Virus record (IMG/VR): IMGVR_UViG_3300027851_000103
Location: 1-28,238 of that record
Direction: 5' to 3' (one strand)
Origin: a virus
DNA: 28,238 nucleotides
Position numbers and translations under genes: made by a program. How positions within the stretch are numbered: position 1 is the stretch's first letter; every line of letters starts with the position of its first letter. Shown here in pieces: positions 13,188-28,238 of the stretch. The notes under the pieces are model-generated. The model saw only the letters and a list, made by a program, of their open reading frames with translations, was not told the origin of the DNA and did no database searches.

Positions 13188-13213
13188 GATGGATAATCCG
13201 AACAAAAACGGCT

Positions 13214-13444
13214 GTCCCACCGTCCCCATCTAGTCCCCGTTTAGATTGTCAGAACATGGGACAGAAAAAACCCAATAACTCCAATATATTATATACTATG
13301 TCCCTCTTGTCCCTCTTCTATTTGGTAAAAAGGTATAATGGTTGGTAGTGGGTATATGCATGTTCACATAATCATTACAGTATGTAGAAGTATCCCATTT
13401 CTGTGGTGTCACCATGAGCTATGTCTCGGGACAGGGACAGGGAC
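13214..13444. repeat. Cluster of nine GTCCC/GGGAC motifs
   Basis: GTCCC at 13214, 13222, 13233, 13300 and 13309; GGGAC at 13258, 13428, 13434 and 13440. The left group points one way and the last three copies the other (GGGACAGGGACAGGGAC, 6 bp period). A 9 bp tandem repeat TGTCCCTCT occupies 13299-13316. A pentamer would be expected about once or less in this length, counting both strands. Confidence 0.75.
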
Positions 13445-13504
13445 GAATAAACCATTGTAAAACCTCAATTCACAAACAATCCGCTAACGTAACGATATTT
13501 GGCG

Positions 13505-13520
13505 TTGCGGTTATCTCAAT
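13505..13520 (-). promoter_or_regulatory. Phage-wide motif copy in the divergent region
   Basis: The minus strand reads ATTGAGATAACCGCAA, one mismatch to the consensus. It has the orientation of the minus-side sites but lies closer to the plus-strand gene at 13571, so it could serve leftward transcription or act as an operator for the rightward promoter. Confidence 0.6.
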
Positions 13521-13570: not shown

Positions 13571-13771
13571 ATGCGTAAATTTACACGCGAACAGAGGTGT
13601 GATGCGGCGCTAATTTGTCGTCGCTGGAGAATGGAAAAAGGTCTATCCCAGTATCAGGCTGCTAAGATTCTCGAAACACACGCGCCAATTATTTCGCTAG
13701 CCGAGAGCGCAGATCATCGCTGCCCAAAGTGGCTCGTCGCTACATTCTTATATGGGATGGGTGATTTATGA
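13571..13771 (+). CDS. Small XRE-type HTH regulator
   Basis: 66 residues. 'ALICRRWRMEKGLSQYQAAKILETHAPIISLAESADHRCPKWLVATF' (residues about 14-60) forms a helix-turn-helix of the XRE/Cro type, although the recognition helix is unusual. It is the first gene of the rightward unit and overlaps the primase-helicase start by 4 nt (ATGA), so it is probably co-translated. CGGAG lies before the ATG and a TATAAT box at 13548-13553. It may control the GTCCC cluster or the motif at 13505, but that is untested. A role as a Cro-like early regulator is an inference. Confidence 0.65.
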   Translation: MRKFTREQRCDAALICRRWRMEKGLSQYQAAKILETHAPIISLAESADHRCPKWLVATFLYGMGDL

Positions 13772-16224
13772 GCCTCTACGATACCGACAAAATCCGCGCA
13801 GACTACCCTGTGAGCCGTGCCGTTGAGGCTGCTGGCATCAAGCTCACGCGCGACGGGCAAGAGTTCAAGGCATGCTGCCCCTTCCACAAAGAGCGCACAC
13901 CCAGCTTCACGATTAACGACGCAAAGGGCTTCTACCACTGTTTTGCGTGCTCAGCCCACGGCGACGTGGTGGACTTTGTGAAGGCATATCACAGCGTCAG
14001 CTTTCGCGAGGCATGCGCCATCATCACTGGCGACGAACCGGCACCCGAGGGTGAGCGTGAAGAACGAGCAAGCAAGGCTGTAGACGTATATGCTGGCCTG
14101 ACTGGTTTGCCAGCGCCGCAGGAAGTATGGCAAGCGGGCAAGCGCACACCTCTTATATATAACCCCAAGCGCGCCGATGACGAGAAGCGCCGCTTTGTAC
14201 GCTACACGCCAAGCATGGTGTTTCCCTATCGCAAGCCATCGGGCGAGATAGGCGGCTACGTCCTGCGCATCGACCTTGATGGCGGCGGCAAGATCACCCC
14301 AACCATCCGCTATGCACAATTGCCAGATGGCACCGAAGGCTGGACGCACTGGGCTTTCAAAGACCCGCGGCCACTATACGGGCTGGACAGAATGGCAGCA
14401 GCGCCGAACGCTCAGGTGTTCGTGTGCGAGGGTGAGAAGGCAGCCGATGCCTGCGCGCGCCTGCTTGGCGTTGTCGCTGTGGCGTGGCCAGGCGGTACGA
14501 ACGCGGTTGAGAAGGTGAACTGGCCGTTGCTGCGCGGGCGCAAGGTCGTGCTGTGGCCGGATGCCGACCCCGTTGGTTGGGATGCGATGCAGCGTGTGGC
14601 TGTTGCCCTGCAAGGCATTGCCGCCGAGGTGAAGATCATCGACAGCCGCGACCATGCCGTGAAGGGATGGGATGCAGCCGATGCCGAAGCCGATGGCATG
14701 AGTAAAGCCGACGCACTGGCGTGGGGCAAGGCACGTATAAGCATATGGCGGCCAGAGATGGCAGCCAGTGAGGGGGATGCCTCTACCCGTAAGGATGAGG
14801 TTGCGAGTGCGCACGCATTGGCTGGAAATGGTCAGCCATCCCCCAACCCTACCCCAAGTGTTGAGATAAAAGCAACGCAGCAAGAGAAGCCAGAACCAGC
14901 GCCCGAGCCTAAGAAAAAGCCAAAGCCGCGCCTGACAGTGATCGAGGCAGGTGAGCCGCACCCAGACCTGTGGCGCAACCGGCTGGTGGTGAAAGAAGAC
15001 GGCGCGCCAAAACCACGAAGCGTCGAAAACGGCATGCTGACTTTGCAATACCACGACGCCATGGCCGGTTCGCTGGTTTACGATGCCTTTGCCGATATGG
15101 TCATGTTCACCCGCCGCCCGCCATGGGAGAAAGAAGATGGCAAATGGCACCCCCGCCCTATTCGCGATGATGATGCCATCGCATGCGCCGGTTGGCTTGA
15201 GCGACCCGAGGCAGGCTCGCTAGGCTTGAAGCCGCACGAGGTGCAGGCATGCATGATGCGCGTGGCGAAGGCGAACGAGGTAGACCCAGCGCGCGAGTGG
15301 CTTGAAGCACAGGTGTGGGATGGCACCGAGCGCATAAACCACTGGCTTAGCGACTTTTGCGAGGCCGAGAGCACAGCGTTCGTCACCACAGTGGCGCGCA
15401 AGTTCCTTATCAGCGCCGTGAAGCGTGTGATGGAGCCAGGCTGCAAGGTCGATGCGATGCTTATTCTCGAAGGCTCACAGGGCTTGGGCAAGTCAGCGGC
15501 ATTGCGCGTGCTGGGCACATGGGGTGGCCGTTCGTACTTCACCGACCAGGTGGACGACATCAACAACAAGGACGCGTTGATTCAGATTCAGGGTGTGGCC
15601 GTGATCGAGTTCGCTGAGATGGACACGCTCAATAAGGCTGACACCGACAACATCAAGAAGTTCATCACCCGTCAGGTTGACCGCTACCGACCGCCCTATG
15701 GCCGTGTGCTGGTAGACAGACCACGCCGCTGTGTGTTCGCCGGCACCGTGAACCCAGGCGGCAACGGGTACTTGAAAGACCCCACAGGCGCGCGCCGGTT
15801 CTGGCCAGTGGCCGTGGGAAATATCGACCTTGATGGGCTGGCCAAGGCAGTGCCGCAGCTTTGGGCTGAAGCCGTAGCCGCATGGCGTGCGGGCGAGCGC
15901 AACTGGATTGACGACCCCGAGGTGATGAAGCTGGCGAGCGACGAGCAAAGCGCACGGTATGAAGACGACCCGTGGGCTGAGCTGATCGACCGCCACCTGC
16001 TGCATGTGGATGCCATCACCATCACCGAGCTGATGGAGAAGCTTGACATCCCACCAGAGCGTCGCGACCGGCGCGCATCAAACCGCATTGGCGCGCACCT
16101 GCGTCATCGCGGCTGGTCGAATCGCAAAGACTACCGCCCTCACCCACGGGCTAACCCTCAGCGTCGATTCTATGCGCCGACAAGCAACCTCGTGGATGAG
16201 CAAGGCGAGATCGAGTTCACTTAA
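13768..16224 (+). CDS. Primase-helicase fusion: CHC2 zinc finger, Toprim, VapE-type ATPase
   Basis: 818 residues; the phage replication primase and helicase. The N-terminal CHC2 zinc finger has C37, H40, C58 and C61 (CCPFH...YHCFAC). The Toprim domain has E221 (CEGEKAADA) and D265/D267 (LWPDADPVGWD). A Pro/Lys/Glu-rich linker covers about residues 335-390. The C-terminal virulence-associated E (VapE) ATPase has Walker A at about 569-576 (GSQGLGKS), 'VAVIEFAEMDTL', 'RPPYGR' and 'GARRFWPV'. All key residues are present. The linker carries the 30 bp GDASTRKDEV repeat and a 15/16 match to the phage-wide motif at 14860, which suggests that two once separate genes were fused. Confidence 0.93.
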   Translation: MSLYDTDKIRADYPVSRAVEAAGIKLTRDGQEFKACCPFHKERTPSFTINDAKGFYHCFACSAHGDVVDFVKAYHSVSFREACAIITGDEPAPEGEREERASKAVDVYAGLTGLPAPQEVWQAGKRTPLIYNPKRADDEKRRFVRYTPSMVFPYRKPSGEIGGYVLRIDLDGGGKITPTIRYAQLPDGTEGWTHWAFKDPRPLYGLDRMAAAPNAQVFVCEGEKAADACARLLGVVAVAWPGGTNAVEKVNWPLLRGRKVVLWPDADPVGWDAMQRVAVALQGIAAEVKIIDSRDHAVKGWDAADAEADGMSKADALAWGKARISIWRPEMAASEGDASTRKDEVASAHALAGNGQPSPNPTPSVEIKATQQEKPEPAPEPKKKPKPRLTVIEAGEPHPDLWRNRLVVKEDGAPKPRSVENGMLTLQYHDAMAGSLVYDAFADMVMFTRRPPWEKEDGKWHPRPIRDDDAIACAGWLERPEAGSLGLKPHEVQACMMRVAKANEVDPAREWLEAQVWDGTERINHWLSDFCEAESTAFVTTVARKFLISAVKRVMEPGCKVDAMLILEGSQGLGKSAALRVLGTWGGRSYFTDQVDDINNKDALIQIQGVAVIEFAEMDTLNKADTDNIKKFITRQVDRYRPPYGRVLVDRPRRCVFAGTVNPGGNGYLKDPTGARRFWPVAVGNIDLDGLAKAVPQLWAEAVAAWRAGERNWIDDPEVMKLASDEQSARYEDDPWAELIDRHLLHVDAITITELMEKLDIPPERRDRRASNRIGAHLRHRGWSNRKDYRPHPRANPQRRFYAPTSNLVDEQGEIEFT
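14772..14801 (+). repeat. 30 bp direct repeat, copy 1 (encodes GDASTRKDEV)
   Basis: It starts GGGGGATGCC and ends GGATGAGGT, and is identical at all 30 bases to 20795-20824. Both copies are read in the same frame as GDASTRKDEV. CATCCCCC at 14837-14844 can pair with the starting GGGGGATG, so the whole unit may extend to about 14855. Confidence 0.85.
14860..14876 (+). promoter_or_regulatory. Motif-like sequence inside the primase linker
   Basis: GTTGAGATAAAAGCAAC matches RTTGAGATAATCGCAA at 14 of 16 positions, here on the plus strand and inside a coding region. It directly follows the GDASTRKDEV unit. It may be a relic of an intergenic site or act inside the gene. Confidence 0.35.
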
Positions 16225-16810: not shown

Positions 16811-17049
16811 AGGAATCGGTTGGTGCTGATCCTCTGGTCGCACGGCGCGACATCGTACTCAGCCTCCCGAGTTTGCCGAACCGTGGTGATTTGTCTTCGG
16901 CACTCAGTAGGGCAATGCCTGGCACCGTAAACATAAGAGGCCAAGGCTGAGAGCCGCACTCACACTGGGTTACAGGGATGTGAAAATAATCCTTGACTGG
17001 CATGAGTGTTGAGATTATCTTAACACGACCAGACACACAGGAGGAACTT
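16811..17049. other. Intergenic region with a single promoter-like site
   Basis: 239 bp without a convincing gene. The left 170 bp hold nothing I can name. The right end holds the AT-rich stretch, TTGACT box and phage-wide palindrome that precede the gene at 17050. Confidence 0.6.
16983..17024 (+). promoter_or_regulatory. Promoter/operator-like site, plus-side type
   Basis: An AT-rich stretch (AAAATAATCC), then TTGACT at 16993-16998, 10 nt later GTTGAGATTATCTTAAC (17008-17024, imperfect palindrome). GATTAT inside it begins 14 nt after the -35-like box. The upstream stretch GAAAATAATCCTTGAC is repeated exactly at 28150-28165. Confidence 0.65.
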
Positions 17050-17271
17050 ATGACACAAGAAACCAAACACACGCCTAAACCCTTTTTACTCAGCAAAGAG
17101 CATTACGAACTTATTGCCCAGTTTGAGAAGGAATTTAAGGGCTGCCGTCTGGACAAAGAAGAAAAGTCGTTTTGGTCAAAGGGAAATATTTTCCAGAGCG
17201 GCGAAGTCAATAATTTGTTTTTGGCATATCGTCGTGGCTATGCACTCGCCAAAGCACGCGGGGAGGCATAG
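17050..17271 (+). CDS. Hypothetical protein (73 aa)
   Basis: 73 residues, Lys/Glu-rich, with 'LLSKEHYELIAQFEKEFKGCRLDKEEKSFWSKGNIFQSGEVNNLFLAYRRGYALAKA'. The end 'LFLAYRRGYALAKARGEA' is a frequent ending of small phage proteins. GGAGGAA precedes the ATG closely. The plus-side promoter/operator site lies about 26 nt upstream, so this gene probably begins the accessory transcription unit. No family was recognised. Confidence 0.68.
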   Translation: MTQETKHTPKPFLLSKEHYELIAQFEKEFKGCRLDKEEKSFWSKGNIFQSGEVNNLFLAYRRGYALAKARGEA

Positions 17272-17273
17272 CC

Positions 17274-17384
17274 ATGACACGCTTACTCAACATCACATTG
17301 CTAGCACTGCTTATAGCCATGCCGTTTGCGGCTGATATTGGCTACAGCAAATGGGTGAAAATGGAGCAGGAACGCAATCAGTAG
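17274..17384 (+). CDS. 36-aa membrane or secreted peptide
   Basis: 36 residues: a short basic start (MTRLLN), a hydrophobic stretch (residues 6-20) and a charged tail. It could be a single-pass membrane peptide; 'PFAAD' would also fit signal peptidase cleavage. GGGAGG lies about 8 nt before the ATG and the gene starts 2 nt after the previous stop. No homolog was recognised. Confidence 0.45.
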   Translation: MTRLLNITLLALLIAMPFAADIGYSKWVKMEQERNQ

Positions 17385-17392
17385 GAGGATTT

Positions 17393-18142
17393 GTGTCTAA
17401 GAAATTTGAACTAACATCGGAAACGACAATTCATTTCGGAAAGAAATTATACCGCATCAAGGCGCTGGTGTCATTTGGCAACGTTGCTGCTGGCGATCTA
17501 GGTGGCTTTGTTGAGAAAGAAGAAAACCTAGAGCAGCACGGCAATGCTTGGGTGTCCGGCAATGCTCAGGTGTCCGGCAATGCTTGGGTGTACGGCAATG
17601 CTTGGGTGTCCGGCAATGCTCAGGTGTCCGGCAATGCTTGGGTGTACGGCGATGCTCAGGTGTACGGCAATGCTTGGGTGTCCGGCAATGCTTGGGTGTC
17701 CGGCAATGCTCAGGTGTACGACAATGCTTGGGTGTACGGCGATGCTCAGGTGTACGGCAATGCTCAGGTGTCCGGCAATGCTCAGGTGTCCGGCAATGCT
17801 TGGGTGTACGACAATGCTTGGGTGTCCGGCAATGCTCGGGTGTACGACAATGCTTGGGTGTCCGGCAATGCTCGGGTGTACGGCGATGCTCAGGTGTACG
17901 GCGATGCTCAGGTGTACGACAATGCTCAAATCATCTGGATATCAAAAATTGGCAGCGAATTAGGAACGCTAACCGGCTTCAAAGACAAAGATGGCCAACT
18001 GATTTTAACGCGTGGTTGCTTCATCGGAACGGCGGAGCAGTTTGTTGAGGCCGTCAGCGAGAAGCATGGCGACTCAAAGATTGCTCGTGAATATGCCCTT
18101 GCAGTCGAGTTGATAAAGCTTCGTCTGTCGGAGGATGTATGA
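17393..18142 (+). CDS. Hexapeptide-repeat (left-handed beta-helix-like) phage protein
   Basis: 249 residues from a GTG at 17393, chosen because AGGAGG lies 4 nt before it; an in-frame ATG at 17351 has no such site. Residues 1-49 hold 'IKALVSFGNVAAGDLGGFVEKEENL', a typical lead-in. Residues 50-181 are 22 hexapeptide units of the type [GD][ND]A[WQR]V[SY], with regular spacing expected for a stacked beta helix. The C-terminal 'IGSELGTLTGFKDKDGQLILTRGCFIGTAEQFVEAV' is also typical of this prophage family. The biochemical role is unknown; similar proteins have been called putative transferases only from the repeat. It ends in an ATGA overlap with the next gene. Confidence 0.8.
   Translation: MSKKFELTSETTIHFGKKLYRIKALVSFGNVAAGDLGGFVEKEENLEQHGNAWVSGNAQVSGNAWVYGNAWVSGNAQVSGNAWVYGDAQVYGNAWVSGNAWVSGNAQVYDNAWVYGDAQVYGNAQVSGNAQVSGNAWVYDNAWVSGNARVYDNAWVSGNARVYGDAQVYGDAQVYDNAQIIWISKIGSELGTLTGFKDKDGQLILTRGCFIGTAEQFVEAVSEKHGDSKIAREYALAVELIKLRLSEDV
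17540..17935 (+). repeat. 22-unit, 18 bp tandem repeat inside the hexapeptide gene
   Basis: Units differ at only a few bases: GGC/GAC, AAT/GAT, TGG/CAG/CGG and TCC/TAC. The last unit is degenerate. No stop occurs in this stretch in several other frames, which creates long false reading frames on both strands. Confidence 0.95.
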
Positions 18143-18375
18143 CACACCTCACTGTGATCGAAGGCGGCAACAAGCCGCGCGGCAAAGAGCAGGCGCTATC
18201 ACAATTCGCGCTTGAGTTCTCATTCACCGTGCACGCCTTGCGCACAATCGTCTACGGCGTAGCGCTGCTTTGTCAGCCGGATAGGAACGCCGCTGAGTGG
18301 AACGATGTGCTTGAGAGCATGGCCAGACTAACCGAGGCGTCAGAGCGTATGGCACAGGTGTATGGGGGTGAGTGA
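18139..18375 (+). CDS. Hypothetical protein (78 aa)
   Basis: 78 residues. It begins MTHLTVIEGGNKPRGKEQALSQFALEF, continues with a moderately hydrophobic helix ('HALRTIVYGVALLC') and ends in a helical part. The start overlaps the hexapeptide gene by 4 nt (ATGA), so coupled translation is likely. I recognise no family, though 'LTVIEGG' starts occur in small phage proteins. Confidence 0.65.
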   Translation: MTHLTVIEGGNKPRGKEQALSQFALEFSFTVHALRTIVYGVALLCQPDRNAAEWNDVLESMARLTEASERMAQVYGGE

Positions 18376-18530
18376 TGACTAACGCACCCACCACGCTCGT
18401 TGAACAAATCAAACTACTAACCCGCCTGAAAGACGAATGCCGCCACGAACCTGACCCTATAGTGCGGGAAGCTGGTGAGAATTACTTTCAAGCACGTATT
18501 GATAAAATCACGAAGGAGCTGAAACGATGA
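18375..18530 (+). CDS. Hypothetical protein (51 aa)
   Basis: 51 residues: helical N-terminus (LVEQIKLLTRLKDEC), short acidic loop, second helix (YFQARIDKITKELKR). GGGGGTGA lies just before the ATG. The ends overlap the genes on each side by 1 and 4 nt. It is too short to assign a family. Confidence 0.55.
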   Translation: MTNAPTTLVEQIKLLTRLKDECRHEPDPIVREAGENYFQARIDKITKELKR

Positions 18531-18739
18531 AACAAGCCATAGAGTGGCATGCCCAGTGCCTGAAAAAACACAGATACTCAGTTCAGAGTATGCGCGAAAC
18601 AGTGCGGCGTGAGATTGAGGGATTAGAGCGAGCGGAGAAACGACTAGAAGAACACGAGGCACAGTACGCTGAAGCAATCAGGCGGGGCGTAAAAGAATAT
18701 GATGCAGACAAATTTAACAAAAAAAGGAATAAATCATGA
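18527..18739 (+). CDS. Coiled-coil hypothetical protein (70 aa)
   Basis: 70 residues, strongly charged and mostly one long helix (residues about 20-60: 'MRETVRREIEGLERAEKRLEEHEAQYAEAIRRGV') with heptad-like spacing. It ends in a basic tail. ATGA overlaps join it to both neighbours. It probably works as a dimer; function is unknown. Confidence 0.62.
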   Translation: MKQAIEWHAQCLKKHRYSVQSMRETVRREIEGLERAEKRLEEHEAQYAEAIRRGVKEYDADKFNKKRNKS

Positions 18740-19200
18740 CCACTAAACTAGAACGCATTGCTAAGATGGAAGCCGAGCTTGCAGCACTTAAAGCTGATGT
18801 GCAGGCAGAGAGTAAACCAAAGACACCGTGCTTTACGCCTGAGGGTGGTGAGCGGCATTCATATTTGTGCGTTGGCTTAGACGGTGCCCACCTCCAATCA
18901 GCAACGTCTAGTGTTTGCCCACCCAAAGCAGCATTCCGCGACCAAGCCACAGCCGATGCATACGCAGAAGCATTCAACGTCATGCTTGAACTGCGACTGT
19001 ATGCTGATGGTGGGGATTGGTACATTTGGTGTGATAGTTGTGGTACGAACTGTTACGCTGAATACTCAGTAACCGACTACTCAGTCCCCGGCGCATTCAG
19101 TGGCCGCTACTCATCCCGCGAGCAAGCCGAACTGTCCTTTAAATCCGTAGGCGAAGCACGCATCATTGCTGCAATCAAAACACTGTGCGGGGCTGTATGA
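18736..19200 (+). CDS. Hypothetical protein (154 aa)
   Basis: 154 residues. A short helical start ('LERIAKMEAELAALKADVQ') precedes a folded part with 'RHSYLCVGLDGAHLQSA', 'DQATADAYAEAFNVMLELR', 'WYIWCDSCGTNCYAEYSV' and 'SSREQAELSFKSVGEARIIAAI'. The CDSC pair could bind metal but only two close cysteines are visible. It overlaps both neighbours by 4 nt. No family was recognised. Confidence 0.65.
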   Translation: MTTKLERIAKMEAELAALKADVQAESKPKTPCFTPEGGERHSYLCVGLDGAHLQSATSSVCPPKAAFRDQATADAYAEAFNVMLELRLYADGGDWYIWCDSCGTNCYAEYSVTDYSVPGAFSGRYSSREQAELSFKSVGEARIIAAIKTLCGAV

Positions 19201-19400
19201 GTGACGAAGATTCAGGCTACCTAGTTGGCAACGATGATATGTCGGTAGCTTTCACCGATGAGGAAAACATGGCGATTGCGTCAATCAAGCCAGATGCATT
19301 GCGGCCAGTTCTTAGCGATGAACAATTCACCGCGCTAACCAAGCTTATTAGCTGCATAAGCGCATGCGTATTTATGAATCAGGGAGGGCAGAAACAATGA
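19197..19400 (+). CDS. Hypothetical protein (67 aa)
   Basis: 67 residues. The acidic N-terminus is followed by 'IKPDALRPVLSDEQFTALTKLISCISACVFMNQG', whose end is moderately hydrophobic. The ATG at 19197 gives the ATGA overlap with the upstream stop seen throughout this cluster and is preferred to the in-frame start at 19185. Function is unknown. Confidence 0.58.
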   Translation: MSDEDSGYLVGNDDMSVAFTDEENMAIASIKPDALRPVLSDEQFTALTKLISCISACVFMNQGGQKQ

Positions 19401-19708
19401 CAATCGACACTAAACAATTGGCGCAAGATATAGCGCGGGTGATGAGCATTGCGCATAAAAACCCGCGAGGCAAAAGTGAACTTGAGGCGGCTGCACTTTA
19501 CCATGAAAAAAGACTTGGTTTGCAAGCCGAGATTCCAACCATGCTTGACATCATCCGCCGCCAGCAAGACGTAATACGTGAGTTGGTTGGTGCAATGCAG
19601 AAGGCAAAAGAAGACGGATGTGTGAAATATTTAGACACGTGCGACGATGGTGGTGAGTTTTGGCACTCGGCCCTCGCACTTGCCGAGCCGTTGCTAGGGG
19701 GTGAGTGA
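19397..19708 (+). CDS. Hypothetical protein (103 aa)
   Basis: 103 residues, mainly helical: 'DTKQLAQDIARVMSIAHKNPRG', 'TMLDIIRRQQDVIRELVGAMQKAKEDG' and a C-terminal 'ALALAEPLLGGE'. The ATG at 19397 overlaps the previous stop (ATGA) and follows GGGAGGGCAG. It may form a coiled coil. No family was recognised. Confidence 0.62.
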   Translation: MTIDTKQLAQDIARVMSIAHKNPRGKSELEAAALYHEKRLGLQAEIPTMLDIIRRQQDVIRELVGAMQKAKEDGCVKYLDTCDDGGEFWHSALALAEPLLGGE

Positions 19709-19770
19709 TGCAAACTATGTATTTTATTTTTGTGACGGCTGTTTGCCTCTGGATATGGTTTGGGGTGTAG
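19708..19770 (+). CDS. 20-aa hydrophobic peptide
   Basis: 20 residues, MQTMYFIFVTAVCLWIWFGV, essentially one membrane-spanning segment. Its ATG shares the A with the upstream TGA, and GGGGGTGAG lies just before. Too short to be sure it is made, but it sits in an unbroken chain of overlapping genes. Confidence 0.35.
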   Translation: MQTMYFIFVTAVCLWIWFGV

Positions 19771-19772
19771 CC

Positions 19773-19865
19773 ATGAGCGAGCAAACCATACACGCCATTG
19801 CAGCGGCTCTAACAGTCCTAGCCCTGCCGTGTGTACTTTTGATCGGGCTGATGGGGGGAATGTGA
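19773..19865 (+). CDS. 30-aa membrane peptide
   Basis: 30 residues starting MSEQTIHAIAAAL, with a hydrophobic segment from residue 7 to about 27. It begins 2 nt after the 20-aa peptide and overlaps the next start by 1 nt. Like its neighbour it could be an inner-membrane micropeptide; no homolog was recognised. Confidence 0.4.
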   Translation: MSEQTIHAIAAALTVLALPCVLLIGLMGGM

Positions 19866-20065
19866 TGAGTAAAATTTGGAGGCGACTATTTCCTGTGCGC
19901 GAGAAGTATATTCCGTATGAAAGCGGAAGCGTTATTTCGCATGTGCAGCCATATCGTGACTGCGTGCTAGTCATCACGAGTTACGGTGCGATGTATTGTG
20001 TACAGTGGGCTGATATTGCGCACAGCTTCGTCGTGACCAAAATCACGGAGTTCCGCAATGACTAA
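19865..20065 (+). CDS. Hypothetical protein (66 aa)
   Basis: 66 residues: basic start (MSKIWRRLFPVREKY), then 'SVISHVQPYRDCVLVITSYGAMYCVQWADIAHSFVVTKI', which looks like a small beta fold. GGGGGGAA precedes the ATG. It overlaps the next gene by 8 nt. A longer in-frame start at 19760 is less likely, because it would cover the small membrane peptide. No family was recognised. Confidence 0.6.
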   Translation: MSKIWRRLFPVREKYIPYESGSVISHVQPYRDCVLVITSYGAMYCVQWADIAHSFVVTKITEFRND

Positions 20066-20465
20066 ACCAATCAACCTAACCGAAGTGCTGGAGCGGATGA
20101 AGGAATACAACGGCACACTATATGACTACACCGCTGGTGCTTATTGCGGCGTTTTAGTTACTGAAAAAGTAATGAAGAAGCTTGCAAAATTACAAGCCGA
20201 GCATTTGGCAAAAATAAAACGCTTATTAGGTGATTCAGTGGGCGAGGTTTTTCCATCATCATGGACGCTTCATTACCCGAATGGCGAGCAAACAATTGTA
20301 CGCTATATTGATGGTTCTGCCGATTTATCAGAGCGCATTGACCTCGCGGTTATTGGCAGTCAACCAAGGGCATGTCATCCAGTGTTCTTTGCCGACAGCA
20401 TGGATGAAGCCAGAAAACTTGCCGATGAACGACACGCCGCGCAGGCACATGGGGTGAAGGAGTAG
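20058..20465 (+). CDS. Hypothetical protein (135 aa)
   Basis: 135 residues. Segments are 'LTEVLERMKEYNGTLYDYTAGAYCGVLVTEKVMKKLAKLQAEHLAKIKRLL', 'SSWTLHYPNGEQTIVRYIDGSADLSERI' and 'FFADSMDEARKLADERHAAQAHG'. It looks like a folded soluble protein. No membrane segment, metal-binding motif or known family was recognised. Confidence 0.62.
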   Translation: MTKPINLTEVLERMKEYNGTLYDYTAGAYCGVLVTEKVMKKLAKLQAEHLAKIKRLLGDSVGEVFPSSWTLHYPNGEQTIVRYIDGSADLSERIDLAVIGSQPRACHPVFFADSMDEARKLADERHAAQAHGVKE

Positions 20466-20469
20466 TGGT

Positions 20470-20625
20470 ATGGCCAAGATAATAACGAGAAAATGCCAAC
20501 GCTGTAAGTGCGAATTTGAAGCGCGTGAGGCTGACGTGAAGCGCGGCTGGGCAAAGTTCTGTTCTAAATCCTGCAAAGCAATCAAGCAGACATACGGCAA
20601 AATGGCATTCAAGGAGCAATTATGA
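20470..20625 (+). CDS. Small zinc-binding protein (51 aa)
   Basis: 51 residues with two cysteine pairs: KCQRC (C9, C12) and FCSKSC (C32, C35) flanking a basic stretch (EAREADVKRGWAK). This C2-C2 spacing is a treble-clef or zinc-ribbon type common in small phage proteins. GTGGT precedes the ATG and the end overlaps the next gene by 4 nt. It probably binds nucleic acid, which is inferred from the fold only. Confidence 0.62.
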   Translation: MAKIITRKCQRCKCEFEAREADVKRGWAKFCSKSCKAIKQTYGKMAFKEQL

Positions 20626-21269
20626 ACGAACTAAAACAATCAATGGCTAAAGCGATTTTCCCCTTCGTATCTGACAACCCAGATAACGACCATCACAGGG
20701 CTTTGGCTGGAGCCATAGCACAAGCCATACTCGACATGCCTGAGATTAAGCAGGCACTACAAAACACCGTCGCGTTAGATGGCGGTGTGACTATGGGGGA
20801 TGCCTCTACCCGTAAGGATGAGGTCAGCAGCACTGCTGCTTTTGTTACGTCCCCCACCAACCCCCGCGATTGTAAAGAGTGTGGGCAATCTGCTCGCGGT
20901 GGAGTGCACCACTGCCAGCCCACCTACACGCACGAGCAGGTCATGAGGCCAACCATGACAACGGATAACACACGCGGCAAAGTGAAGGTGCCTAGTGGTG
21001 TGGTTGAGCGGGCGTTAAAACAGATTCCAACGGAAAACGTGAATATGAGTGCACGCGATGCTAGACGCATTGTAACGGAATTAGCAGCAGCACTCGACCA
21101 CGAACGCGCACGGCTTATGCCAGTGCTGGAACAGGTGAGGGAGGCTTTGTCATTTATTCAGATGGTCGGGATAGAGCCAAATGACTTGCCAGACAATATA
21201 AGACTACGGCAATCGGCAACTATGGCCACCAAAGCACTCGCAGCGATTAACGAAGTGTTGAAGGGGTAG
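20622..21269 (+). CDS. Hypothetical protein with inserted GDASTRKDEV element (215 aa)
   Basis: 215 residues. The N-terminal 55 residues are helical ('LKQSMAKAIFPFVSDNPDNDHHRALAGAIAQAILDMPEIKQAL'). Residues 59-68 are GDASTRKDEV from the 30 bp repeat, followed by a low-complexity Ser/Thr/Pro stretch. 'CKECGQSARGGVHHC' (residues about 84-98) could bind zinc. The C-terminal 100 residues are helical. The repeat sits where two different-looking parts meet, as in the primase. It overlaps the zinc protein by 4 nt. No family was recognised for the whole. Confidence 0.62.
   Translation: MNELKQSMAKAIFPFVSDNPDNDHHRALAGAIAQAILDMPEIKQALQNTVALDGGVTMGDASTRKDEVSSTAAFVTSPTNPRDCKECGQSARGGVHHCQPTYTHEQVMRPTMTTDNTRGKVKVPSGVVERALKQIPTENVNMSARDARRIVTELAAALDHERARLMPVLEQVREALSFIQMVGIEPNDLPDNIRLRQSATMATKALAAINEVLKG
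20795..20824 (+). repeat. 30 bp direct repeat, copy 2 (encodes GDASTRKDEV)
   Basis: Identical to 14772-14801 and read in the same frame. It is followed about 25 bp later by GTCCCCCACCAACCCCC (20849-20865), similar to CATCCCCCAACCCTACCCC after copy 1, so the related unit may be about 70 bp long. Confidence 0.85.
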
Positions 21270-21273
21270 GGTG

Positions 21274-21561
21274 ATGCTGAGTCCACGCATATTATTTGGT
21301 GATACTACACGCCTGATAAAAGTTGGCATGCATAGACAGGCGGCTTTGTGGTTTGGCTTTAATGTCTGGGCTTGGGTTGCGAGAGTGCCTGTGTTTATTA
21401 TCGTCGCTCCCTTGGTTTTAATTCATCTAATAGCAGAAGGCATTGTTGAATGGCTGCGCTCAAGCCGCGTGAAGCGTTACTATGTTGCGTTGGACGATAA
21501 AGAAGATCGCTGGCGCGATGAATTGCGCAAAGAATATATAAAACGCAAGGAGTCCGTATGA
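21274..21561 (+). CDS. Single-pass membrane protein (95 aa)
   Basis: 95 residues. A basic amphipathic start precedes a long hydrophobic stretch (about residues 26-60, 'FGFNVWAWVARVPVFIIVAPLVLIHLI') which spans the membrane once or as a tight hairpin. The tail is strongly charged ('DDKEDRWRDELRKEYIKRKES'), probably cytoplasmic. The ATG at 21274 is preferred to the GTG at 21271 because of spacing to AAGGGG. It overlaps the next gene by 4 nt. Function is unknown. Confidence 0.6.
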   Translation: MLSPRILFGDTTRLIKVGMHRQAALWFGFNVWAWVARVPVFIIVAPLVLIHLIAEGIVEWLRSSRVKRYYVALDDKEDRWRDELRKEYIKRKESV

Positions 21562-21752
21562 CCGATAACCACTATGCGCTTTTCAAAGATGGGAAGCAGA
21601 TAAGCAAAAAACACGCTTCACGGCAAGTTGCTTTAATAGAAGCCTATGAACGTGGCGCTATTGTTCATTACTCGGCTGATTTTATTGGCGATGCCAGCGG
21701 CACTGAAATGATTGGTGGCTACGAAATACGGGAGGTTCAGAATGACCGATAA
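21558..21752 (+). CDS. Hypothetical protein (64 aa)
   Basis: 64 residues. 'YALFKDGKQISKKHASRQVALIEAYERGAIVHYSADF' resembles a small phage protein pattern (K.GK.ISK.H......A..EA.E.G.V.....DF), then 'MIGGYEIREV'. I recall this pattern in small phage proteins without a known function. AAGGAG lies before the ATG. It overlaps the Lar-like gene by 11 nt. Confidence 0.6.
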   Translation: MTDNHYALFKDGKQISKKHASRQVALIEAYERGAIVHYSADFIGDASGTEMIGGYEIREVQNDR

Positions 21753-22446
21753 CCAAGAGCTACTGCCATGCCCTTTTTGTGGTTCGACAGATGTTGACCC
21801 AACTGGTGTTGCTTCATTCAAAGATAATGAGAAAAACAACCCTGATGGAAGCCCACGTAATTGGTATAAGGCTAAGCCAGAATGGATAGAGCATCGCCCC
21901 GCGTGCAATAATTGTGGCGCTAGCACAGATAGTGATTGGAACACCCGCCCCACACAGCCGCAGGGCGACGTGGTGGAGCTTAGAGGTGTTGCAGAAGTTC
22001 TAGCCGAAACAAAGGAAGAAGGCATAGGTTTCTGGCGAACCTGCACCGGATGCTATGAAGGCGTAGACGGGCAAAACGTTCATGGCTACCAGCACAGCAA
22101 GGTGTTCGAGTGCGTGATCGGCATGGGTTGTCGTGAATGCGGTGGAATTGGCGCGACATGGGATACGACAGATTATGAAGAGATGGCTAAAAGCATGATT
22201 GCCGATGATATATCCGCCATGCCGCAGATGCCGGAGGAGGATGAAATCGAGAAGGCATTACGCTATCTTTTCCAAGTGGGTTATAACGTAGGCCACGGCG
22301 ATTGTGTTCTCGGTAAGCCTTTCAATAATGATGCAGGCAAAGAATATGCGATATTCGATACGCGAGAGCCGGAGTCATCCACGCTTCGCGCCCTACTCAA
22401 ACACATGCGGGGTGAGTGCCGTGACATTGCGCCACGCGAAAATTAA
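21742..22446 (+). CDS. Lar-like zinc protein with extended C-terminus
   Basis: 234 residues. The N-terminal 'ELLPCPFCGSTDVDPTG...RPACNNCGASTDSDWNTRP' (about residues 5-72) is the pattern of Lar-family proteins, which in the Rac prophage reduce host EcoKI restriction. CPFC and CNNC would hold one zinc. Unlike Lar proteins, which are short, this one has a second cysteine cluster (CTGCYEG near residue 104, CRECGGIG near 135) and a helical C-terminal region ('EKALRYLFQVGYNVG'). GGGAGG precedes the ATG by 8 nt. Restriction relief is a possible role, not demonstrated. Confidence 0.62.
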   Translation: MTDNQELLPCPFCGSTDVDPTGVASFKDNEKNNPDGSPRNWYKAKPEWIEHRPACNNCGASTDSDWNTRPTQPQGDVVELRGVAEVLAETKEEGIGFWRTCTGCYEGVDGQNVHGYQHSKVFECVIGMGCRECGGIGATWDTTDYEEMAKSMIADDISAMPQMPEEDEIEKALRYLFQVGYNVGHGDCVLGKPFNNDAGKEYAIFDTREPESSTLRALLKHMRGECRDIAPREN

Positions 22447-22472
22447 CTTTTGATTCCGAATTGTTATGCACC

Positions 22473-22505
22473 ATCTCTCTATGTAATTTTACACATGGGA
22501 GAGAT
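22473..22505 (+). promoter_or_regulatory. Hairpin covering the ribosome binding site of the next gene
   Basis: ATCTCTC (22473-22479) pairs with GAGAGAT (22499-22505) and ATGT with ACAT inside. GGGAGAG, the likely ribosome binding site for the ATG at 22507, lies in the stem. No T tract follows, so it is not an intrinsic terminator. Confidence 0.4.
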
Positions 22506-22506
22506 C

Positions 22507-22725
22507 ATGCGCTGGTTGGAAGGCATCAAGTGCGAAGACGGACTTGAAGAAGCTAGTTGCGGCAGGCTTGTTTCCTACATCAACGGCGACACACAGATTC
22601 AGCTCGCCGGTTTCTTTACTCCGTGTGAACTGTGTCGCCTGGCATGGTTTGTAAGATGGCAAGGGCAGCCTCCTCAGAACGCGCAACCCCAGCAATGCCC
22701 CCAGCAGTGCGCACCGCCTGAATAA
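22507..22725 (+). CDS. Small Cys-containing hypothetical protein, converges with VRR-NUC
   Basis: 72 residues from the ATG at 22507, with 'WLEGIKCEDGLEEASCGRLVSYINGDTQIQLAGFFTPCELCRLAWFVRWQ' and a Gln/Pro-rich tail. CELC could bind metal with the earlier cysteines. The last 110 nt overlap the end of the VRR-NUC gene on the other strand. Only the first half looks like a normal protein, and the tail could be an effect of reading through the opposite gene. Confidence 0.42.
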   Translation: MRWLEGIKCEDGLEEASCGRLVSYINGDTQIQLAGFFTPCELCRLAWFVRWQGQPPQNAQPQQCPQQCAPPE

Positions 22726-22984
22726 AGGAAAGCTGCGCATCAGTAGCGCGCCCTTTATCCTTCACCTCAACAGCAACGAACACGGCCAAACGCGCACCGA
22801 CCATCTCGGGCGTGACCGTAACCGTGCGCCATCCAATGAGATCACTGCCGCCTGGGTTGGCGACCCCGTACCTTACCCACTGCCCGTTCTTATCCTGCAA
22901 CGCGCCGCAGTTATTGCGGAACATCCGCACAGCGCCACGGCTACACGCGAGCATAATACGCTTGAGAATGGCAGACTCAGACAC
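22616..22984 (-). CDS. VRR-NUC domain nuclease
   Basis: 122 residues; stand-alone VRR-NUC proteins are common phage nucleases that may act on branched DNA. The signature is clear: 'RYGVANPGGSDLIGW' (D48), 'VAVEVKDKGRATDAQLSFIQAVRTAGG' (E73, K75, Q84) and 'AGVARSEEAA'. The GTG at 22984 is chosen because GAGAGG lies 4 nt before it and it gives an 8 nt overlap with the upstream zinc-ribbon gene. A longer in-frame start at 23110 would cover most of that gene. It is the last gene of the minus-strand recombination block. Confidence 0.85.
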   Translation of the reverse strand: MSESAILKRIMLACSRGAVRMFRNNCGALQDKNGQWVRYGVANPGGSDLIGWRTVTVTPEMVGARLAVFVAVEVKDKGRATDAQLSFIQAVRTAGGIAGVARSEEAALAILQTMPGDTVHTE

Positions 22985-23195
22985 CGCACCTCTCAGGGCC
23001 GGCGCACCACCATGTTCCAAGTAGGTGTTGATATGGCTTGCCCGCCCCCGCTGCGTTGAGAGCTGCACGGTACTGCACACCAACACCGAACGCCGGCATG
23101 TCACAGCCACACCCAGCGCACACGCGGCGAATAATAACCGTGCCAGACTCAGCGCGTCGGGTTAGGCGGGGTGATGTGATTTTATCAACGGTCAT
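22977..23195 (-). CDS. Small zinc-ribbon protein (72 aa)
   Basis: 72 residues. 'RRVCAGCGCDMPAFGVGVQYRAA' and 'LLGTWWCAGPERCGV' give C-x2-C and C-x5-C pairs that can hold a zinc. The long loop between them has no other Cys. It is encoded between the helicase (9 nt gap) and the VRR-NUC gene (8 nt overlap). It may be a helper of one of those enzymes, but no family is known to me. Confidence 0.6.
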   Translation of the reverse strand: MTVDKITSPRLTRRAESGTVIIRRVCAGCGCDMPAFGVGVQYRAALNAAGAGKPYQHLLGTWWCAGPERCGV

Positions 23196-23204
23196 GGCGC
23201 AGCA

Positions 23205-24674
23205 TTACCTACCTATCGCGCTCAAAACCCACGCAGCGAACTTCCCAGGGTCAGGCTTCCCGATGCTGCTTGCGTAAGCCACCAGCTCACCAAGCGTAGC
23301 CTCACTGCCCTTGCGCGCGCGGTGATAATGCGCCGCCCAGAATAGCGGGCGCTTGTAGCCCCTGCCCTCACCCACAGCGACCAGCTCAGCGAGCGACTCG
23401 CACTTGCGGTTCTCGATCACACGGCGTTTGCGCGCGGCCTCAAGGTCAACCTCGACCAACTCAGCGTCCACAACCTCAGGCTCACGAGCTTGCACCACAT
23501 ATTCGTGGCCGCACTCGGGGCACTTAGGCGCAGGCGCGTGCGCGGCGTAGCAGCTTGGGCACTGGCGCACAGCGGGTCCACTATCCACACCTTTGCCCCC
23601 AGCTTTCTTTGCCCGACCCTCTAGGCTCCATTCCCGTTCATCGTCAGGCAGGCCGTGGCGCGCGATGTTGCCGGCGTGGTCGAGAATGAGCGCCTGCTTC
23701 TTGCCCGCATCAGGTCGAAGGCACCGGCCAACCTGTTGCAGATATAAGCTGAGCGACTGCGTGGGGCGAAGGAGAATGGATACCTCAAGCTGCGGAAGGT
23801 CGAACCCTTCACCGAATAAATCGACGTTGCAAAGAACCTGTATCTCACCGCGTCGGAAGGCCGCGATAGTCTGCTTGCGAACCTCAGGCTGCGTCGTGCC
23901 ATCGAGATGCACCGCGACAACACCAGCCAGCCGGAACTGTTCAGCCACATGCTGCGAATGCTTGACTGACACACAGAACGCAACCGCAGACTTGCCGCGA
24001 GCCAGCTTCAGATAATGCTTGATCGCGTCACCCGTGATGGTGGGCTTATCCATCACGCTTTCATTCTCACCTCGGGCGTAGTCGCCCATACGCTTTGTCA
24101 CGCCAGCCATGTCAGGCGCGGGCGGGGCAAAGGCTCGGTACTTGCTGAGGTAACCATTCTCTATCAGCCACGGCACGCTTGGGCCGCGCACCATTGCGGC
24201 AAAAAGATCATCAAGACCCTTGCCATCAAGGCGCTCAGGCGTAGCGCTCAGACCCACATGCTTTGCCTGCGGGTTGGCTTGCATCACCCGCTTCCAGCCA
24301 GCGGCGGCGGTGTGGTGGGCCTCGTCCCACACAATAAGGTCGGGCGCGCGGTAGCGGCTCATACGATTTTTTAAGGTGTCTATGCTGCAAATCTGCACCG
24401 GCATGTTCGGGTTCACAGGCCAACCTGCTGCAATCACACCATAAGGAATGCCGACCTTATCGAAGGTACGCGCGGTTTGCTCTACCAGCTCAGCGCGGTG
24501 GCAGTTGAACCATGAGATGCGACCACGTGAAGATGCCGAGCCAAGCATGTGCGCAGCAAGCGCAGTCTTACCAGCACCAGTGGGTGCCTGAATGAGAACC
24601 GAGTCATTGTGCCGCAGAAGGCCGCGCGCCTCCGCAATCATCGCGTCCTGATATGGGCGAAGCTGAAATGTCAC
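23205..24674 (-). CDS. SF2 DEAD/DEAH-box DNA/RNA helicase
   Basis: 489 residues. It begins 'LRPYQDAMIAEARGLL' (Q motif-like). Walker A is PTGAGKT (residues 31-37), motif II is DEAH (117-120), motif III SAT (143-145) and motif VI 'QQVGRCLRP' (313-321). A C-terminal zinc finger has C372, C375, C385 and C388. This is the helicase common in temperate phage replication or recombination clusters next to VRR-NUC. All motifs are intact. It overlaps the upstream HTH gene by 4 nt. Confidence 0.9.
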   Translation of the reverse strand: MTFQLRPYQDAMIAEARGLLRHNDSVLIQAPTGAGKTALAAHMLGSASSRGRISWFNCHRAELVEQTARTFDKVGIPYGVIAAGWPVNPNMPVQICSIDTLKNRMSRYRAPDLIVWDEAHHTAAAGWKRVMQANPQAKHVGLSATPERLDGKGLDDLFAAMVRGPSVPWLIENGYLSKYRAFAPPAPDMAGVTKRMGDYARGENESVMDKPTITGDAIKHYLKLARGKSAVAFCVSVKHSQHVAEQFRLAGVVAVHLDGTTQPEVRKQTIAAFRRGEIQVLCNVDLFGEGFDLPQLEVSILLRPTQSLSLYLQQVGRCLRPDAGKKQALILDHAGNIARHGLPDDEREWSLEGRAKKAGGKGVDSGPAVRQCPSCYAAHAPAPKCPECGHEYVVQAREPEVVDAELVEVDLEAARKRRVIENRKCESLAELVAVGEGRGYKRPLFWAAHYHRARKGSEATLGELVAYASSIGKPDPGKFAAWVLSAIGR

Positions 24675-24877
24675 AGCCCATTCAACTCTTCAAACGAAAG
24701 GGCTGCGCCGCGACGCCGCGCCTCCATCACCAGAAACGCATGGTGGCGGGTAGGAATCTTGCCGTCTTTGCGGGTTTCCCACTCGCGTGGGCAGGTGCGG
24801 GTTACGCCACACAGCCGCGCCAGTTCGGCCTTCGACCCAATGTCAAGCCGTTTCATTACCAATTTGACTACCGTCAT
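24671..24877 (-). CDS. Cro-like HTH regulator
   Basis: 68 residues. 'LDIGSKAELARLCGVTRTCPREWETRKDGKIPTRHHAFLVMEARRRG' is a helix-turn-helix of the Cro/YdaS-like type: helix 2 is 'KAELARLCG' and the recognition helix 'TRTCPREWE'. The end is 'LSFEELNGL'. The gene diverges from the XRE repressor at 24995 across 117 bp, a typical lysogeny switch arrangement. It is the first gene of the helicase/VRR-NUC unit. The pairing as a true switch is inferred. Confidence 0.7.
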   Translation of the reverse strand: MTVVKLVMKRLDIGSKAELARLCGVTRTCPREWETRKDGKIPTRHHAFLVMEARRRGAALSFEELNGL

Positions 24878-24937
24878 AAAAACTCACCAGTTAGATTTTC
24901 ACAACCATACCATTTCGTAAATCACAACGCAACATTA

Positions 24938-24967
24938 TTGACATTTTACCGACACTTACTCTATGAT
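24938..24967 (+). promoter_or_regulatory. Sigma70-type promoter for the XRE repressor
   Basis: TTGACA (24938-24943), 18 nt spacer, TATGAT (24962-24967), followed by AAGGAGG and the GTG at 24995. This is the most canonical promoter in the window. It does not carry the phage-wide motif. On the other strand a weaker TTGCGT-17-TATGGT pair may serve the Cro-like gene. TCACAAC occurs twice in the gap and might be an operator half site. Confidence 0.7.
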
Positions 24968-24994
24968 ACCTGACCCTAACCAAGGAGGCCGAAC

Positions 24995-25354
24995 GTGGCC
25001 ATCAACGGCAAGTGGTTTCGTGCGAAGCTGGTCGAGAAATCCCGAAGCCAAAGGCAGCTTGCAAAGCACCTCGGGCTAGACCCCGCCGCCATCACCCTCA
25101 TGCTTCGCGGCGACCGCCGCATGCAGCTAGACGAAGCCAAATCCATAGCCGCTTTTATAGGTGAACCGCTGATTGATGTGCTGCGTGCCGCTGGCCTGCC
25201 ACTGCGCCAGTCTGGTAGCGCGTCCATCGGAATGACACCCATGCCAGAGAGCGCCGCCGACAGCGCAACCGTTCGTGATCTTGTGCGCAAATATAACGGG
25301 CTACTGGCTGAGGCCGAGAAGGTTGCGCGCGCTATTGAGGTATTGAAATCATAG
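24995..25354 (+). CDS. XRE-family repressor candidate
   Basis: 119 residues from a GTG with AAGGAGG 6 nt upstream. 'KSRSQRQLAKHLGLDPAAITLMLRGDRRMQLDEAKSIAAFIGEPLIDVLRAAG' is a clear XRE helix-turn-helix (residues about 12-63). The C-terminal part is a short helix ('DLVRKYNGLLAEAEKVARAIEVLKS') that may dimerise. There is no LexA-like S24 peptidase domain, so RecA-driven self-cleavage is not expected. Divergent from a Cro-like gene, it is the best candidate for the lysogenic repressor. Confidence 0.75.
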   Translation: MAINGKWFRAKLVEKSRSQRQLAKHLGLDPAAITLMLRGDRRMQLDEAKSIAAFIGEPLIDVLRAAGLPLRQSGSASIGMTPMPESAADSATVRDLVRKYNGLLAEAEKVARAIEVLKS

Positions 25355-25370
25355 GCCGCAAACTTTCCTG

Positions 25371-25402
25371 TTGACTATTGCGAATGTTGAGATAATCTCA
25401 AC
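25371..25402 (+). promoter_or_regulatory. Promoter/operator-like site with perfect 17 bp palindrome
   Basis: TTGACT (25371-25376), 9 nt, then GTTGAGATAATCTCAAC (25386-25402), a perfect palindrome around one central base. GATAAT begins 14 nt after the TTGACT box. It lies 25 nt before the ATG of the 69-aa gene that leads the recombination genes. Confidence 0.7.
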
Positions 25403-25637: not shown

Positions 25638-26453
25638 ATGCAACCAGGTATCTACAGCGATCTAAGCAATGAGCAATACCACGGCGGCGAAGGCATCTCG
25701 AAGTCTGGCCTGTGGAAGCTGCACACCAAGTCGCCCGCGCATTACCGCGCCGAGGTGATGGAAGAAACCGACGCAATGAAGTTCGGAACCGCAGCGCACA
25801 TGGCGTTGCTTGAGCCGGAAAAGCTCGAACGATTTTATGCTCGGCTGCCTGATGCTTACGATGGGCGCACCAAGGCTGGCAAAGACCTGCTTGCAGCCAT
25901 CGAGGCATCGGGTGTCGTGGCACTCAAGGCCGCTGAGTTCGATGCTGTGCTTGCCATCCGCGACAAGCTGCACGCCGAGCCTCTTATTAAGAAAGCGCTG
26001 GCCGGTGCTCAGTTTGAATATAGCGCGTACTGGATTGACGATGTGACCGGCGAACTATGCCGCTGCCGACCGGATGCATATAACCCAGGGCTGCGCCTCA
26101 TGGTTGACCTGAAGACCACCGTAGATGCCAGCCCGTCAGCCTTCCCTAAGTCGGTGGCTAACTTCGGCTACCACATGCAACAAGCATGGTATCGCGACGG
26201 GTGGGAAGCAGCAGGTGGCGGCGAGGTCGATGCGTTCGTGTTCATCGCGGTCGAGAAAACCGCGCCGTTCGCATACGCCATCTATGACTTGAACCCCACC
26301 GACGAGGCTATTGGCCGCATGCTGTGCCGAGAGGCGCTGGACAAATACGCCGCATGCAAACGCGCCGATGACTGGCCAGCCTACCCAACCGGCGTGCAGT
26401 CCCTATCGTTGCCCGCGTGGGCACGACCAGCCATGCCTGAAGCATTGATCTAA
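25638..26453 (+). CDS. RecE-like PD-(D/E)XK exonuclease
   Basis: 271 residues; resects DNA ends so that RecT can anneal the strand. It begins 'GIYSDLSNEQYHGGEGISKSGLWKL', the usual opening of the phage PDDEXK exonuclease family (DUF3799). 'KFGTAAHMALLEPE' carries H54, 'CRCRPDAYN' carries D146, and 'LMVDLKTT' gives D157 and K159. 'HMQQAWYRDGW' holds the conserved Gln and Tyr. All catalytic residues are present and length is normal for a single-domain protein. It is followed by recT after 20 nt. Confidence 0.9.
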   Translation: MQPGIYSDLSNEQYHGGEGISKSGLWKLHTKSPAHYRAEVMEETDAMKFGTAAHMALLEPEKLERFYARLPDAYDGRTKAGKDLLAAIEASGVVALKAAEFDAVLAIRDKLHAEPLIKKALAGAQFEYSAYWIDDVTGELCRCRPDAYNPGLRLMVDLKTTVDASPSAFPKSVANFGYHMQQAWYRDGWEAAGGGEVDAFVFIAVEKTAPFAYAIYDLNPTDEAIGRMLCREALDKYAACKRADDWPAYPTGVQSLSLPAWARPAMPEALI

Positions 26454-26473
26454 TCACAACAACGGAGAGAATA

Positions 26474-27967: not shown

Positions 27968-28164
27968 AACTACTATCACCAAAGCAGGCCGCTGAGCGTC
28001 TTAGTTTGGCCGAACAAACGCTGGCGAACATGCGCTGCGCAGGTGGCGGGCCTCGGTTCTACAAGCTTGGCCGTCGCGTTGCCTATTCAGAGGCCGATCT
28101 GAATGAGTGGCTTTCACTTCGCGTTTTCGACAACACCCAGCAGGCACAGGAAAATAATCCTTGA
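27964..28164 (+). CDS. Excisionase-like HTH (HTH_17) protein
   Basis: 66 residues. 'LLSPKQAAERLSLAEQTLANMRCAGGGPRFYKLGRRVAYSEADLNEWLSLR' is the winged helix-turn-helix of the MerR-like HTH_17 / AlpA / Xis family. In phages these proteins act as excisionases or transcriptional activators. The stop codon lies inside the TTGACC box of the next promoter-like site, and the last ten codons fall in the left arm of the terminal inverted repeat. No integrase is visible, but it could be encoded beyond the right end. Confidence 0.72.
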   Translation: MKLLSPKQAAERLSLAEQTLANMRCAGGGPRFYKLGRRVAYSEADLNEWLSLRVFDNTQQAQENNP

Positions 28165-28238
28165 CCTGAGATAAGTGTTGTGATTATCTCACAACACTTA
28201 TCTCAGGTCAAGGATTATTTTCCTGTGCCTGCTGGGTG
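28134..28238. repeat. Perfect 50-5-50 bp inverted repeat at the end of the window
   Basis: The left arm 28134-28183 and right arm 28189-28238 are exact reverse complements, separated by TTATC. The right arm ends on the last base of the window. The left arm contains the end of the HTH_17 gene, so the right arm is a backward copy of coding sequence. A fold-back artefact or hairpin end are the two main explanations. Confidence 0.95.
28161..28195 (+). promoter_or_regulatory. Promoter/operator-like site at the right end
   Basis: TTGACC (28161-28166) followed by GTTGTGATTATCTCACAAC (28177-28195), a palindrome with a non-symmetric centre. The preceding 16 bases match those before the site at 16993. 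The centre of the large inverted repeat falls exactly on its middle (28186). Confidence 0.55.

Follow-up and report, generated by a model that had tools for sequence, protein, structure and literature searches.

Dispersed palindromes as a probable operator network of the CI-like repressor in an epsilon15-like podovirus

A recurrent palindrome in the phage genome

The IMG/VR record IMGVR_UViG_3300027851_000103, analysed here over its full 28238 bp (the window), belongs to an uncultured phage in which a 17-bp palindrome recurs upstream of genes on both strands. The plus strand encodes, among others, a primase/helicase, a RecE-type exonuclease, RecT (for which only distant relatives were found) and an excisionase-like helix-turn-helix (HTH) protein. 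The portal, protease, capsid, tail and terminase genes match those of epsilon15-like podoviruses, and an adjoining contig carries a lysozyme and a tyrosine integrase. Judged by its gene content, the phage is an epsilon15-like temperate podovirus. A gene for a small CI-like repressor is followed by recE/recT and the integrase, with a small HTH gene lying divergently; Burkholderia phage DC1 has this gene order too, with a divergent regulator. Further HTH genes encode a 66-aa protein (13571-13771) and a 93-aa protein located after the third of the plus-strand sites described below.

The sequence-only reading had pointed to two TTGACT boxes, at 16993 and 25371, each followed after 9 nt by a palindrome and after 14 nt by GATWAT, and to a third related site at 28161. 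Re-reading of the sequence confirmed all of these. The palindrome GTTGAGATTATCTTAAC at 17008 is one mismatch off a perfect palindrome, whereas GTTGAGATAATCTCAAC at 25386 is perfect except for its central base. At the third site the box is TTGACC, 10 nt ahead of GTTGTGATTATCTCA as read in the window; its true form comes from a second contig.

The last stretch of the window (28134-28238) is an inverted repeat with perfect 50-nt arms, a 5-nt loop and this third site at its centre. Window positions 1-13296 are matched with 100% identity by a second record, IMGVR_UViG_3300006033_000083 (30977 bp), which is therefore the same phage. The other end of this record overlaps the third site by 17 nt (GTGTTGTGATTATCTCA) and then reads ACGTGCTTTTAACCAACAGGAGAATTTTTTATG. 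Since the second contig continues differently, the sequence past about 28191 is a fold-back (snap-back) assembly artefact and the third site must be read from that contig, where it is TTGACC-N10-GTTGTGATTATCTCAAC, with a ribosome-binding site and then an ATG downstream. A telomere or hairpin end, which the long palindrome might have indicated, was ruled out by the same differing read-through. The second contig breaks at the same spot as the inverted repeat, on the operator palindrome, and the artefact was probably seeded by that palindrome itself. Joined, both records form a circle of 45855 bp, to which all positions above 28191 refer.

Within the window, 16 matches to the motif (at most 3 mismatches) were found against 0.06 expected. 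In an unbiased palindrome survey of the closed genome the 15-mer core had 14 matches against 0.05 expected, and the motif ranked first with a log10 P of -27, the runner-up reaching -5.7. The closed genome of about 45.9 kb contains 12 strong sites of the general form RTTGNGAWWWTCNCAAY, all scoring at least 22 bits (4709-, 7414-, 10984-, 13171-, 13504-, 17008+, 25386+, 28177+, 30675-, 30959-, 32760- and 36645-) on a symmetrised matrix built from these same 12 sites. The next-best site has 17.0 bits (Table 1); in simulated genomes, 0.35 sites per genome reach 12 bits. Each site comprises two 7-bp arms, RTTGNGA and TCNCAAY, separated by a 3-bp A/T centre; half-sites of this type occur 13 times at the 3-bp spacing and at most twice at every other spacing. 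According to gene calls made in this analysis, which are approximate, 10 of the 12 strong sites are non-coding, although non-coding DNA makes up only about 12% of the genome (P about 3e-8). Eleven of the 12 stand no more than 81 nt upstream of a gene start.

Table 1. Putative operators, predicted promoter boxes and regulatory genes in the window
Feature	Position	Strand	Remarks
Weaker operator-like site	667-683	-	17.0 bits
Weak operator-like site	1374-1390	-	13.9 bits
Operator ATTGAGATAATCGCAAG	4709-4725	-	15 nt upstream of tail gene at 4694
Operator GTTGAGATAATCGCAAT	7414-7430	-	overlaps ATG at 7415
Operator ATTGAGGAAATCGCAAC	10984-11000	-	between terL and next gene
Operator GTTGAGAAAATCGCAAG	13171-13187	-	19 nt ahead of terS; predicted -35 TTGAGA in left half, 16 nt to TATTCT
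Operator ATTGAGATAACCGCAAC	13504-13520	-	between terS and HTH/primase unit
Weaker operator-like site	14860-14876	+	15.1 bits; inside primase gene
-35 box TTGACT of predicted early promoter	16993-16998	+	preceded by GAAAATAATCC
Operator GTTGAGATTATCTTAAC	17008-17024	+	predicted -10 TATCTT at 17016-17021, 17 nt from -35; ATG 17050, ribosome-binding site AGGAGG
Small HTH protein, 68 aa	24671-24877	-	divergent from repressor; Cro-like by position; weak YdaS match, E 0.04
Immunity switch region	24878-24994	none	degenerate operator-like sites 24889, 24912; TTGACA-18-TATGAT towards repressor
CI-like repressor, 119 aa, HTH_3	24995-25354	+	putative operator binder; homologues annotated repressor in DC1, JC1, CSP3
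-35 box TTGACT	25371-25376	+	upstream of recE/recT unit
Operator GTTGAGATAATCTCAAC, perfect palindrome	25386-25402	+	between repressor gene and recE/recT
Weak operator-like site	26444-26460	+	12.9 bits; between RecE and RecT genes
-35 box TTGACC of predicted third early promoter	28161-28166	+	
Operator, true sequence GTTGTGATTATCTCAAC	28177-28191	+	last two bases from second contig; then ribosome-binding site, ATG of 93-aa HTH gene, integrase
Fold-back (snap-back) assembly artefact	28192-28238	none	reverse complement of 28134-28180; contradicted by IMGVR_UViG_3300006033_000083

Promoter elements at the plus- and minus-strand sites

All three plus-strand sites have TTGAC 9-10 nt upstream, and a ribosome-binding site followed by an ATG 26-29 nt downstream. 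These features, together with the match to operators of phages with homologous repressors, lend good support to the proposal of the sequence-only reading that a dimer-binding operator covers the -10 region of a promoter. GATWAT itself is not supported as the -10 element, since a 14-nt gap between -35 and -10 is too short for sigma-70. Better-fitting candidates, each inside the palindrome, give the predicted promoters TTGACT-17-TATCTT (17008), TTGACT-16-TAATCT (25386) and TTGACC-18-TATCTC (28177). The left half of the 25386 site was also considered as a -35 element, with TATAGC; the spacing fits, but transcription would then start within the ribosome-binding site, and TTGACT is preferred for that reason. 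Two of the three plus-strand operators are preceded by the 16-mer GAAAATAATCCTTGAC, which has exactly two copies in the genome (16982-16997 and 28150-28165) and is possibly an UP element plus -35. Just downstream of the first of these predicted promoters, a gene of 263 aa matching YdcK beta-solenoid repeats contains about 20 near-perfect 18-nt repeats (17448-17998).

Among the minus-strand sites, the left half-site itself doubles as a -35 match at several (36645, TTGCGA-17-TATAGT; 32760, TTGAGA-17-TACAAA; 13171, TTGAGA-16-TATTCT). A -10 sequence match is located 16-18 nt downstream of the left half, in gene direction, at 5 of the 12 strong sites against a background of 6% (P=4e-4), with the AT-rich flanks as a caveat. 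The sequence AATATCCTGCGTTGT occurs exactly twice, on the minus strand (7453-7467 and 11023-11037), each time 22 nt upstream of an operator (7414 and 10984), and looks like a duplicated upstream region of a late promoter. Here TTGTTG-17-CATATT (10984) and TTGTGA-17-TATGTT (7414) overlap the operator. No good promoter was seen on inspection of 4709, 30675 and 30959, so that a role as a roadblock is possible at these three.

The plus-strand form had further been proposed to be distinct from an asymmetric minus-strand form. A strand difference does exist at position 13, where G is found in 8 of 9 minus sites and in none of the 3 plus sites (P=0.018), and within the window the strong minus sites all read TTGAG(A/G)...(T/C)CGCAA and the plus sites TTGWGA...TCTYAA. 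In the whole genome, however, the minus set also includes symmetric sites, namely two C/C palindromes (30675 and 36645), besides a T/A site resembling the third plus-strand site (30959). We therefore describe them as variants of one motif in which positions 5 and 13 are free, and not as two distinct forms. The A/C-asymmetric sites are all (6/6) oriented with late-gene transcription; symmetric sites occur too. A graded response of early and late units through such operator variants is possible, with few sites behind it.

Operator sets in related phages

The protein encoded at 24995-25354 matches phage transcriptional repressors, and also proteins annotated as repressor in the Burkholderia phages DC1, JC1 and CSP3. 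An operator role of the palindrome for this repressor predicts related palindromes in phages whose repressors are homologous. The comparison of equivalent gaps in relatives, which the sequence-only reading had suggested, indeed revealed that such phages carry their own dispersed palindromes at the heads of equivalent units. The repressors of the compared phages align through the HTH region, that of DC1 with 30% identity in its N-terminal region. Whole-genome palindrome surveys of the GC-rich DC1 and Itty13 were swamped by composition, a problem solved by restriction to intergenic DNA. The top dyad of DC1 then had 7 sites, where 0.056 were expected; among them are sites at the switch, in the repressor-recE gap and at late unit heads. 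Its core GGTTNGATWATCNAACC has the same length as GTTGNGATWATCNCAAC here, the same GATWATC centre and the same free positions 5 and 13, whereas the outer 4 bp differ. In a matrix scan of the whole DC1 genome the top 17 matches were all intergenic, 10 of them not used for the matrix, with the AT-richness of intergenic DNA as a possible bias.

The palindromes of BcepIL02 are of the DC1 type and have the GATWATC core, but not the outer box, in common with this phage. The other sets, those of PEp14 (TGTTGTCAAAACGGCAACA), SopranoGao (YGTTGC...GCAACA) and Itty13 (TGTTTGC...GCAAACA), reach lower significance (log10 P about -7). The sites of these four phages are located ahead of capsid, terminase or lysis genes or at the switch. 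The 25386 operator has counterparts in epsilon15 (32478-32632), DC1 (7142), BcepIL02 (6093) and Itty13 (50298). The best -10 match in DC1 and BcepIL02 falls on the operator centre (mean 3.65 of 6); a -35 match is present at 17-nt spacing, though not as the top-scoring offset. In DC1 (L065/L066), where predicted operators include 7142, 7844, 18812, 30162, 45765 and 60505, some are paired 19-20 bp apart (60505/60524, 45765/45785 and 2037/2056), before lysis, DarB and integrase genes, a spacing that suggests cooperative binding.

The Bcep22-like phages DC1 and BcepIL02 thus resemble this phage in the N-terminus of the repressor, in the repressor-recE-recT synteny with a divergent regulator, in the 17-bp frame with its GATWATC centre and in having sites at terS, capsid, DarB and lysis genes and the switch. 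They differ in the outer box (GGTT, here GTTG), in repressor length (about 180-200 aa, here 119 aa) and in their virion genes. Their operator set was computed in this analysis: the Bcep22-like sets are not annotated in the records and are unmentioned in the JC1 paper. No priority is claimed for them.

Salmonella phage epsilon15 (Uetakevirus) belongs to the same virion family. Its record (NC_004775, protein_bind features) holds 17-bp palindromes deposited as repressor sites before terS, after terL, before the tailspike, between repressor and recET, at the switch and elsewhere, and its operator likewise overlaps early promoters. These sites read ATTACC-N5-GGTAAT and were ranked top by the same unbiased survey in epsilon15, phiV10 and Kp4865-1. 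Epsilon15 has fewer late-region sites, and its repressor has no convincing similarity to that of this phage. The same layout, with another protein and another sequence, supports an operator function at such places. The motif was absent as a set from the portal relatives in IMG/VR (L007-L039), and it therefore does not follow the capsid genes. Neither Flu_PA14_4, the closest terminase match among deposited phages, nor Nostoc phage Nsp-JY18 had a dispersed operator; only tandem or composition repeats were found in these two.

Repressor control and competing explanations

On this evidence, the palindromes very likely form a dispersed network of operators for the CI-like immunity repressor that the phage itself encodes. 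This protein probably shuts down early and late units directly. A repressor dimer would bind the 17-bp palindrome. On the plus strand it would thereby cover the -10 element and block the early unit (17050 on), the recE/recT unit (25428 on) and the HTH/integrase unit (beyond 28222). The late units of the minus strand (terS, after terL, scaffold/capsid, tail and lysis) are headed by the same operator, which would overlap promoter elements there or may obstruct elongation as a roadblock. In a lysogen one protein would thus hold early and late units off, and its loss would release both.

Several points weigh against this interpretation. The switch sites at 24889 and 24912 are degenerate (about 10 bits); those of epsilon15 are imperfect as well. 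Close relatives of the repressor were absent from the viral_contigs and genome_contigs searches, and its homology is confined to the N-terminal HTH region. Two of the 12 strong sites fall in coding sequence; at several late sites the promoter assignments are weak, and the geometry varies among them. Closure of the circle depends on the 17-nt overlap, and a search for a contig spanning the junction found none. Finally, the binder could be another HTH protein of the phage (24671-24877, 13571-13771 or the 93-aa protein), acting as a Cro-like repressor or a late activator. We hold this to be improbable. It would agree with the presence of several HTH genes, with the slight difference between late and early sites and with the location of 13504 about 48 nt upstream of the start expected from TATAAT at 13548, an activator-like position. 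Operator type, however, tracks the CI-like repressor family: DC1 and BcepIL02 combine the GATWATC core with homologous repressors, whereas epsilon15, with its different repressor, has a different palindrome. As Cro-type proteins usually use the operators of the repressor, the two explanations are partly compatible.

Control by the repressor might at some late sites take another form, in which the bound protein stops elongating RNA polymerase and not initiation. Phage P1 provides a case of many operators scattered over the genome for a single repressor, C1, as in this phage; its 17-bp sites are asymmetric, of another sequence and bound by another repressor type. Dispersed repressor operators are already known from P1, from epsilon15 and from L5-type phages (PMC9283540). 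The stoperators of mycobacteriophage L5-type phages are numerous dispersed repressor sites in short intergenic spaces whose orientation correlates with transcription; they are asymmetric 13-bp sites, and the repressor occupies them as a monomer that has a second DNA-binding domain (PMC9283540). In this phage, too, sites recur along the late operon, some (4709, 30675 and 30959) with no convincing promoter, and the uniform direction of the A/C-asymmetric sites recalls the orientation dependence of L5-type sites (PMC9283540). Most sites nevertheless stand at unit heads, overlapping promoter-like elements, the operators of related phages are centred on -10 hexamers, and a 17-bp palindrome with equal half-sites suits a dimer of a plain HTH repressor, in contrast to the asymmetric 13-mer. 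A stoperator role for some late sites is accordingly conceivable but on balance rather unlikely.

Membership of the sites in a host regulon, with a host factor recruited by the phage, seems hardly credible and is largely refuted. The pattern does occur ahead of a gene in a viral contig unrelated to this phage (L040, 2964-2996, TTGACA-N10-GTTGAGATAATCTCAAC). This could be a chance match, as a few are expected, or point to another phage whose repressor is similar. A scan of 257 Gb of genomes found the promoter plus palindrome pattern 7 times, against about 6 by chance according to our own estimate. The portal relatives, moreover, are devoid of the motif, and every related phage carries a palindrome of its own, which fits the repressor family of that phage.

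With the repressor as binder, a set of puzzling repeats would become a defined repressor-operator network in an uncultured phage, and the silencing of late genes in such podoviruses a testable question. By the same unbiased test, phages with homologous repressors have matching dispersed sets, also before capsid and lysis genes. The boxes GTTG, GGTT, TGTTG and TGTTT on related repressors offer a natural series for the evolution of operator specificity and hence of superinfection immunity. A more speculative generalisation, which we consider doubtful, is that in epsilon15-/Bcep22-like podoviruses one small repressor directly gates every early and late unit through graded, orientation-biased operators and replaces a dedicated late activator or antiterminator. 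The outer 4-bp box would then drift with the repressor, while the GATWATC centre, which is also the -10, would stay fixed.

Two further observations concern other parts of the genome. Near the lysis region, a late gene (L050 10842-11369) weakly matches the Pgp3 C-terminal domain family (E 4e-5); the match may represent a receptor-binding or trimeric fibre domain. The 30-nt sequence GGGGGATGCCTCTACCCGTAAGGATGAGGT forms an exact direct repeat, with one copy in the primase gene (14772-14801) and the other in a gene without assigned function (20795-20824).

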